This document shows, piece by piece, positions 43,253-44,131 of a DNA stretch of 51,283 nucleotides. Origin of the DNA: Clostridia bacterium (GTDB lineage Bacteria > Bacillota > Clostridia > Oscillospirales > SIG627); NCBI GenBank assembly GCA_017439965.1, contig JAFSID010000041.1, positions 1 through 51,283 on the forward strand. Direction: 5' to 3'. The translations under genes and the position numbers were made by a program. Within the stretch, counting starts at the first letter, position 1. Each line of letters starts with the position of its first letter. The notes below the pieces were generated by a model that was not told where the DNA came from, ran no database searches, and worked only from the letters and a program-made list of their open reading frames with translations.

Positions 43253-43326
43253 TATAAAATTGAGCGTTTTAAACAAAATCTCCCTAATAAACAAAAAATA
43301 ATTGTAAACTTTGCACACCTTGTCAA

Positions 43327-43355
43327 TTGATTTTCTCTTAAGGGTGTGGTAAACT
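43327..43355 (+). promoter_or_regulatory. Promoter of the candidate structured RNA
   Basis: TTGATT (43327-43332) and TAAACT (43350-43355) are 17 bp apart, with a start near 43361. No open frame of useful size follows. Confidence 0.55.
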
Positions 43356-43360
43356 ATAGT

Positions 43361-43722
43361 CGAAGAAAGGAAGGTACACTCCAATGAACAAATAGTTCAA
43401 AAGTCAAAAAGGTAAGTCGCAGCTGAACGAAAAACAGAATACACGGCGGTGTTACGCATTACATATATTAAGAGTTCAACGAATTGTTCGGCAAGCAAAA
43501 AGACTTATCCTTCCTTCACCTGACACAAGGAAAAAGTGTAGGACAGAGCAAAATATCAAAGGTTGTGTTTTAGTTCAGCTCTGAGAATTGCAACGACTGA
43601 GTGCAGGTAGACCGCGAAAGAGAGGTTTAAGATGAAGACTGATTTTAAGAGTGAACAGAATTAGCCCTCGGGTATTTACGTGTAAAGAAACGTATGATAC
43701 ACCGAGGGCTAATTCTTTTTTT
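43361..43722 (+). ncRNA. Candidate structured non-coding RNA of about 360 nt, family not recognised
   Basis: A promoter and a strong terminator frame a region with no coding frame. A long-range helix encloses its middle: AGTCG (43415-43419) with CGACT (43594-43598), AGCTGAAC (43421-43428) with GTTCAGCT (43573-43580), and AAAACA with TGTTTT next to it. Inside are local hairpins ACAC-GGCG-GTGT (43441-43452) and CCT-ACAC / GTGT-AGG (about 43519-43543). The 5' part has TGAAC-AAATA-GTTCA. A possible pseudoknot joins GGAAGG (43368-43373) and CCTTCC (43509-43514). A three-codon frame (ATG at 43384) follows the GGAAGG. It does not show the marks of tmRNA, RNase P RNA, SRP RNA or a T-box. All pairings were found by eye. 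Confidence 0.5.
43659..43722 (+). terminator. Terminator of the candidate RNA
   Basis: GAATTAGCCCTCGG pairs with CCGAGGGCTAATTC, followed by seven T residues. This is one of the strongest terminators in the window although no protein gene lies before it. Confidence 0.85.
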
Positions 43723-43749: not shown

Positions 43750-43910
43750 TGTCTGCGGGATATGAGCACCTCGAAATACGTAAGTATTCCATCGGTACTC
43801 ATACCCTTGACGCCTTGTCTTGAACAAAAATCTCTATCCAAAAAGCTCGCTTTTGCTAACGCTATTATTGAAATTAGTATTCCGTCGGCATTTCTACCCT
43901 CGATGCCTTG
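43750..43910. repeat. Palindromic intergenic repeat, same family as 9661-9944
   Basis: The core ACCTCGAAATACGTAAGTAT (43768-43787) is identical to the core at 9681. The outer arms (TATGAG-C-ACC with GGT-A-CTCATA) differ in sequence from the copy at 9661 yet still pair. The part from 43792 to about 43903 is repeated directly 199 bp downstream. Confidence 0.75.
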
Positions 43911-43990
43911 TACTGCTCGCTTCTCTTTGTCAAAAGCTATAAATTAAAAGCTATAAATTAGTAATAGACTTGCAAAAAGACAGGATTTCT

Positions 43991-44102
43991 TCGGTACTCA
44001 TACCCTTGACGCCTTGTCTTGAACAAAAATCTCTATCCAAAAAAGCTCGCTTTTGCTAACGCTATTATTGAAATTAGTATTCCATCGGCATTTCTACCCT
44101 TG
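43991..44102. repeat. Direct repeat of 43792-43903
   Basis: About 110 bp nearly identical to the segment 199 bp upstream (TCGGTACTCATACCCTTGAC through AAATTAGTATTCC). It starts in the middle of the palindrome, so this copy has only the right arm. Between the two copies AGCTATAAATTA is also doubled. Confidence 0.75.
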
Positions 44103-44131
44103 AAGCCTTTGCACTTTTTATAAAAAACAAG

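Follow-up and report, generated by a model that had tools for sequence, protein, structure and literature searches.

Is the transcript at positions 43362–43722 of the 51,283-nucleotide stretch of Clostridia DNA that we analysed (hereafter the window) a non-coding structured RNA, as its initial annotation had proposed, or a gene that is translated? We conclude with high confidence that it is a translated micro-ORF RNA gene rather than a non-coding structured RNA, and it is probably worked by ribosomes. The transcript, like all of the gene's features described below, lies on the + strand and is about 360 nt long, with a predicted start about 6–7 nt after the −10 element. The promoter proposed earlier is present at 43327–43355, with TTGATT as −35 element (43327–43332), a 17-nt spacer, TAAACT as −10 element (43350–43355) and, in addition, a TG extension at 43347–43348. 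The same spacer length occurs in 68/71 copies of the gene, where the −35 consensus is TTGAAA/TTGCAA and the family layout reads TTGAAA/TTGCAA, 17 nt, TG.TATAAT, ATAG.CA.AGAAAGG. A block upstream of the promoter (43278–43326; tCTCCCTA..AACAAAAAA..TTGTAAACTTTGcACA) is also conserved in the homologues, with the consensus ATTTCT...TTTT.(A)CAnAAAA...ATTTTGTACAAAATTGCATA over 71 copies, and is a probable operator, dedicated activator site or UP element. Read 5′ of the −35 element in the window and its homologues together, this conserved block takes the form ATTTCT..TTTTGCAnAAAA...TTTTGTACAAAATTGCATATTGCAA.

At the other end of the gene, the very strong terminator noted previously was found at 43657–43722, as an intrinsic terminator of 15+5+5 bp whose 5′ arm takes in the final sense codon, as well as the stop, of a short 3′ ORF. 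In an alignment of 104 sequences, each of the 18 modelled pairs of the stem has a both-side change in at least one place, the paired cells amount to 95.3% and both-side changes number 352 versus 92 in shuffles; these figures lean upwards, the alignment having been fitted to the structure and including a few reverse-strand matches, but the effect is large. The aligned copies show that the terminator covaries and that it contains the stop codon of the 3′ ORF.

We compared the locus with known RNA families and examined its surroundings. The window had no match in Rfam 15 (including tmRNA, 6S, RNase P, SRP, T-box, ROOL, GOLLD and OLE) at gathering or permissive thresholds, in agreement with the earlier statement that the RNA lacks the marks of tmRNA, RNase P, SRP, 6S and T-box RNA; on the homologous loci the only Rfam 15 matches were to tRNA and the ZTP riboswitch, in the flanks. 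A separate strong tmRNA was found elsewhere in 5/6 carrier genomes (the incomplete G000 assembly had no match above the cut-off), and the 6S covariance model matched other loci in 3/6 genomes, one of them over the cut-off, so that both identities were rejected. A match to a mobile element, raised initially as grounds for refutation, did not emerge: relatives of the RNA gene were absent from phages, plasmids and viral contigs, the last including exact-pattern scans. Neighbouring genes are common within a genus, not between genera, and among the neighbours examined there was no linked partner gene, receptor or transporter included. The downstream gene is not a conserved one, and lies on the opposite strand in 20/35 copies and on the same strand in 15/35; in the window it is on the opposite strand. 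Since its neighbours are not conserved, the gene is free-standing: a stand-alone gene, not a leader. The suggestion of a free-standing RNA gene, perhaps of a new family, is thus borne out by its own promoter and terminator, by homologues in many families, and by the lack of a conserved neighbour or an Rfam match.

These homologues were sought, as the initial annotation had advised, among related genomes, and relatives were found in many families of Clostridia. Searches with blastn returned pieces in a sister species and in a second family of this order, and reading those loci revealed that the pieces common to them are translation signals: a 5′ piece, GAAAGGAAGGTACACTCCA-ATG AAC AAR TAR, and a 3′ piece, AGAGAGG...ATG-TTA-GAT-x-AAG...stop, with the stop inside the terminator. 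Assemblies of ruminant-gut Clostridia/Oscillospiraceae also yielded copies in exact-pattern scans. R2, a covariance model built on the 3′ block and containing no upstream sequence, matched 78/394 genomes of the same order at E ≤ 0.01 and about 67/394, in eleven families, at E ≤ 1e-5. At E ≤ 1e-8 it also matched about 15 genomes of the class that belong to other orders. The E-values of this home-made model are rough. Outside the class, 249 genomes drawn from the phylum served as a natural negative control and gave a single weak match. A promoter of the same architecture stands upstream of the R2 match in 102/110 copies, and a genome-wide pattern search with the promoter-minigene block mainly returned these loci. 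The middle motif, used as a search pattern, gave mostly noise at 2 mismatches. Several matches from the pattern searches (L016–L018, L020, L021, L025, L029 and L031) proved to be unrelated and were for the most part the starts of ordinary genes. Two to four copies occur in some genomes, in tandem in some, and the transcripts of 102 homologues have a median length of 358 nt (range 174–951). The gene apparently represents a widespread, undescribed family across Clostridia, encoding a short transcript with two micro-ORFs. Carriers make up roughly one in six sampled genomes of the order, and the gene appears unannotated because its ORFs, of about 3 and 9–10 codons, fall below every gene finder's limit and because it is too variable for RNA-family searches.

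The first of the two ORFs lies at the very 5′ end. A strong Shine–Dalgarno (SD) sequence, AAAGGAAGG (43366–43374), some 5 nt away from the predicted 5′ end, leads through a GG-N6-CC-A box (43373–43383), with CC at −3,−2, to the minigene ATG AAC AAA TAG (Met-Asn-Lys-stop; 43384–43395), whose start site has counterparts in the homologues. There, a strong SD and an ATG with a stop after 2–4 codons, the features by which we recognized minigenes, were found at 73/89 homologous start sites, whereas such stops follow only about 15% of random positions in the same RNAs; exactly three codons precede the stop at 54 of the 89. This statistic is not circular, because the promoter finder gave a bonus to the GG-N-C-start pattern and none to a following stop. 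TAA, TAG and TGA are all used, and 13/102 copies have no start site fitting the search pattern. CC at −3,−2 precedes 85/89 minigene starts versus 10/96 starts of 3′ ORFs, an excess partly built in by a search pattern that required one C near the start, and the GG-N-CC-RATG box is specific to minigenes. The encoded residues vary (Tyr-Arg, Asn-Lys, Tyr-Lys, Arg-Lys, Phe, Trp, Ile and others), as do the last codons. Comparison of the homologous start sites shows that the amino acids of the minigene are largely free and that the stop almost always comes directly after the start.

The second ORF is introduced by its own SD, GAAAGAGAGG (43616–43625), and encodes MKTDFKSEQN followed by a stop (43632–43664), with the family consensus M(x)L-[DE]-x-K-x-x-x-K and a stop. 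A 3′ ORF of 7–15 codons is present in nearly all of 100 R2 matches and has 9 or 10 codons in 92/98 aligned cases. Leucine codons other than TTA still encode Leu in 23/30 distinct-ORF cases, compared with 22% expected for single changes, and lysine codons other than AAG still encode Lys in 14/21, compared with 11% expected; all 13/13 non-GAT codons at the Asp position are acidic, although this test is partly built in, the ORFs having been aligned on that residue. Extra single codons (MM, MK, MT) are inserted in frame, and the residues that are well conserved are only positions 1–5 and the last. Such codon patterns demonstrate, at the level of aligned ORFs, selection on the peptide itself, and they support the ORF. 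The initial annotation had seen no coding frame here; the two micro-ORFs, each with its own SD, turn out to be the most conserved parts of the gene.

What might these two ORFs do? What selection has kept is that ribosomes can reach the 5′ end yet do not enter the body, together with a short peptide-coding ORF that ends in the terminator. From the anatomy of the gene alone we tentatively propose a specific mechanism, whose chances we put somewhat short of even: a ribosome cap at the 5′ end and, at the 3′ end, a micro-ORF or peptide that serves as an effector or sensor step. The 5′ minigene would act as the cap by binding ribosomes beside the 5′ end and releasing them at once, with 30S/70S ribosomes binding and cycling there without entering the body; this would shield the RNA from 5′-end-dependent decay (RNase J/Y) and would tie its level to free ribosomes. 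A 5′-proximal ribosome-binding site is known to stabilise RNA in Bacillus (PMC3997798), and the review in question also cites a mini-ORF whose ribosome-binding site protects an mRNA in E. coli. Capping of the 5′ end leaves the conservation of the 3′ peptide unexplained, and the copies that have a longer 5′ ORF, or lack a start site matching the search pattern, also speak against the proposal. A ribosome on the 3′ ORF would have to open the terminator stem to reach the stop, and the effector or sensor step could lie in the peptide, whether nascent or released, or in a ribosome retained at the stem. A further-reaching version, which we consider rather unlikely, would make this a new class of bacterial RNA 'bookended' by ribosomes, the minigene capping the 5′ end and the ribosome on the nine-codon ORF being parked against, or having to melt, the RNA's own terminator hairpin; in many gut Clostridia the RNA would in this way sense or sequester ribosomes. 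Should the minigene indeed function, it would show that the conserved function of a gene can lie in translating just two or three codons, and the family would offer a natural system in which to study micro-peptides, start-stop ORFs and the capping of RNA by ribosomes.

With a real but minor probability, the gene could instead be a plain gene for a peptide of 9–10 residues (MLDIKSEQK-like), acting as a trans signal or intracellular effector, with the minigene and the long leader regulating its translation. The synonymous variation of the Leu and Lys codons, the consistently acidic replacements at the Asp codon and the frame-preserving one-codon insertions all favour such a gene, but conservation that is confined to positions 1–5 and the last residue does not, nor do the lack of an export signal, the absence of a linked receptor or transporter gene, and a body far longer than a leader needs. 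The string MLDIKSEQK itself was absent from the open-access literature, the part that could be searched. We regard it as improbable that the RNA is a ribosome or tRNA sink, in which the minigenes are translated over and over and keep initiating ribosomes or peptidyl-tRNA occupied, the effect that minigenes have when overexpressed. Toxicity of a two-codon minigene through slow peptidyl-tRNA recycling has been described (PMC8708949), and the start-stop minigenes here have a strong SD and sometimes stand up to five in a row; yet there is usually just one, very high expression would be needed, and no one tRNA is targeted, because both the minigene amino acids and the last codons vary.

Returning to the preferred reading of a translated micro-ORF gene, we asked how much of the RNA could be explained by structure. 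Between the two ORFs lies a variable middle (43396–43615) that is A-rich, depleted of SD sequences and little structured. Middles differ between copies in length and sequence; 23.8 kb of them contain 50 SD-like sites versus 95 expected, an about twofold depletion, while ATG occurs 357 times versus 358 expected and stops are likewise not depleted. Their folding scarcely exceeds that of shuffled sequence (mean z about −0.8, 22 copies). The window RNA as a whole gave a fold z of −5.3 with the terminator and −2.3 without it, most of the former being due to the terminator. Its minimum-energy fold comprises helices of 5 bp (43377–43381/43649–43653), 7 bp (43400–43406/43640–43646) and 6 bp (43413–43418/43502–43507), so the long-range helix described initially can be seen in the window, where it pairs the spacer between SD and start with the 3′ ORF, but it is not conserved. 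The nearest homologue, in the sister genome G004, keeps the 5′ arm CACTC and has GACAG instead of GAGTG; across 102 homologues the 3′ arm occurs without the 5′ arm in 27/33 cases, the arms being independent across the family, and a conserved helix was therefore ruled out. This verdict does not rely on the pairwise alignment, which is poor at the 3′ end.

The possible pseudoknot (43442–43457) falls in a core, ACACGGCGGTGTTACGC (43441–43457), that could form an H-type pseudoknot through CAC/GTG and RCG/CGY and is kept in 19/102 copies, the nineteen, window included, having CACGRCGGTG..ACGY in common. One R–Y pair changes in a compensatory manner (G–C to A–U) in 4/18 sequences, which lends modest support, and the outer stem never varies. 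That the gene is a non-coding structured RNA with coincidental ORFs is very unlikely: the folding of the window RNA and the small conserved core speak for it, but chance would hardly produce the minigene stop or the synonymous codon pattern, the long-range helix is not maintained in relatives, the middle is variable and folds like shuffles, and what is conserved consists of translation signals and codons. Hardly credible at all is a leader-peptide attenuator, in which a ribosome stalled on the 3′ ORF would cause terminator read-through into a downstream gene, since, despite a stop codon inside the terminator stem as in such attenuators, there is no conserved co-directional gene downstream.

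How does a translated micro-ORF gene of this kind relate to known systems? The bar minigenes of phage lambda are cis elements in operons, with an ORF of two to four codons and a strong SD. The minigene mg2 of axe-txe, a cis element within its operon, resembles the present minigene in these two features and in acting via the ribosome (PMC8708949). Unlike both, which lie inside operons, the present minigene stands first in a free-standing gene and has a conserved 3′ micro-ORF in the terminator as its partner. STAB-SD and similar 5′-end stabilisers also have a strong SD that lies at the 5′ end or close to it (PMC3997798), but they stabilise a long downstream mRNA, whereas here conservation extends to the start and stop codons and the minigene is not followed by a longer ORF. 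The dual-function small RNA VcdRP is likewise a free-standing small transcript with a small ORF; that ORF, however, has 29 codons and the RNA base-pairs with targets (PMC8672173), while the present ORFs span about 3 and 9–10 codons and the comparison revealed no conserved region for pairing. With leader-peptide transcription attenuators the gene shares a short ORF that overlaps the terminator stem and ends in it, but not a regulated downstream gene. No description of a free-standing RNA with conserved three-codon and nine-codon ORFs was seen in the open-access literature searched.

Several variant copies were also observed. In genus g137 (L113, L120, L128) an ORF of 13 codons whose peptide is conserved (MYTKRQSPKVTGR, MNTARRNPKVTGK and MYTLNEAPKATGR, each followed by a stop) takes the place of the 5′ minigene, and two of these three loci have tandem copies of the RNA. 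Three to five minigenes per copy are present in L023/L070, L024/L071 and L030/L078, where one longer unit is conserved as codons (MVKIISLLKRKEI, MAMFKFLPKKEI and MARTKFLPKKEI, each with a stop), with TGA/TAA exchange. A second type of RNA, type B, in genus g26 (L045, L046, L049, L042) combines a strong promoter, TTGACA..TGTGGTAGTAT, with several start-stop minigenes in an array (MY, MNK, MAN and MYN, each before a stop) and one or two conserved peptides of 17–21 residues with the signature KExSExxPP[NDE], for example MKILKTIKETSEGNPPDR followed by a stop. It is oriented divergently to a gene with an HTHGTE motif that is reminiscent of spoIIP; R2 had no match in the sampled type B genomes and matches other g26 members. 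Directly downstream of the RNA gene in the window, at 43770–44109, lie two direct repeats, nearly identical and each about 140 nt long, with a spacing of 199–200 and no clear gene between them, and downstream of the G004 copy (L002, 2050–2700) are duplicated tRNA-associated repeats, with repeated 'acaaagctaaaaacagtcctcaggactgtt' units and partial tRNA copies.
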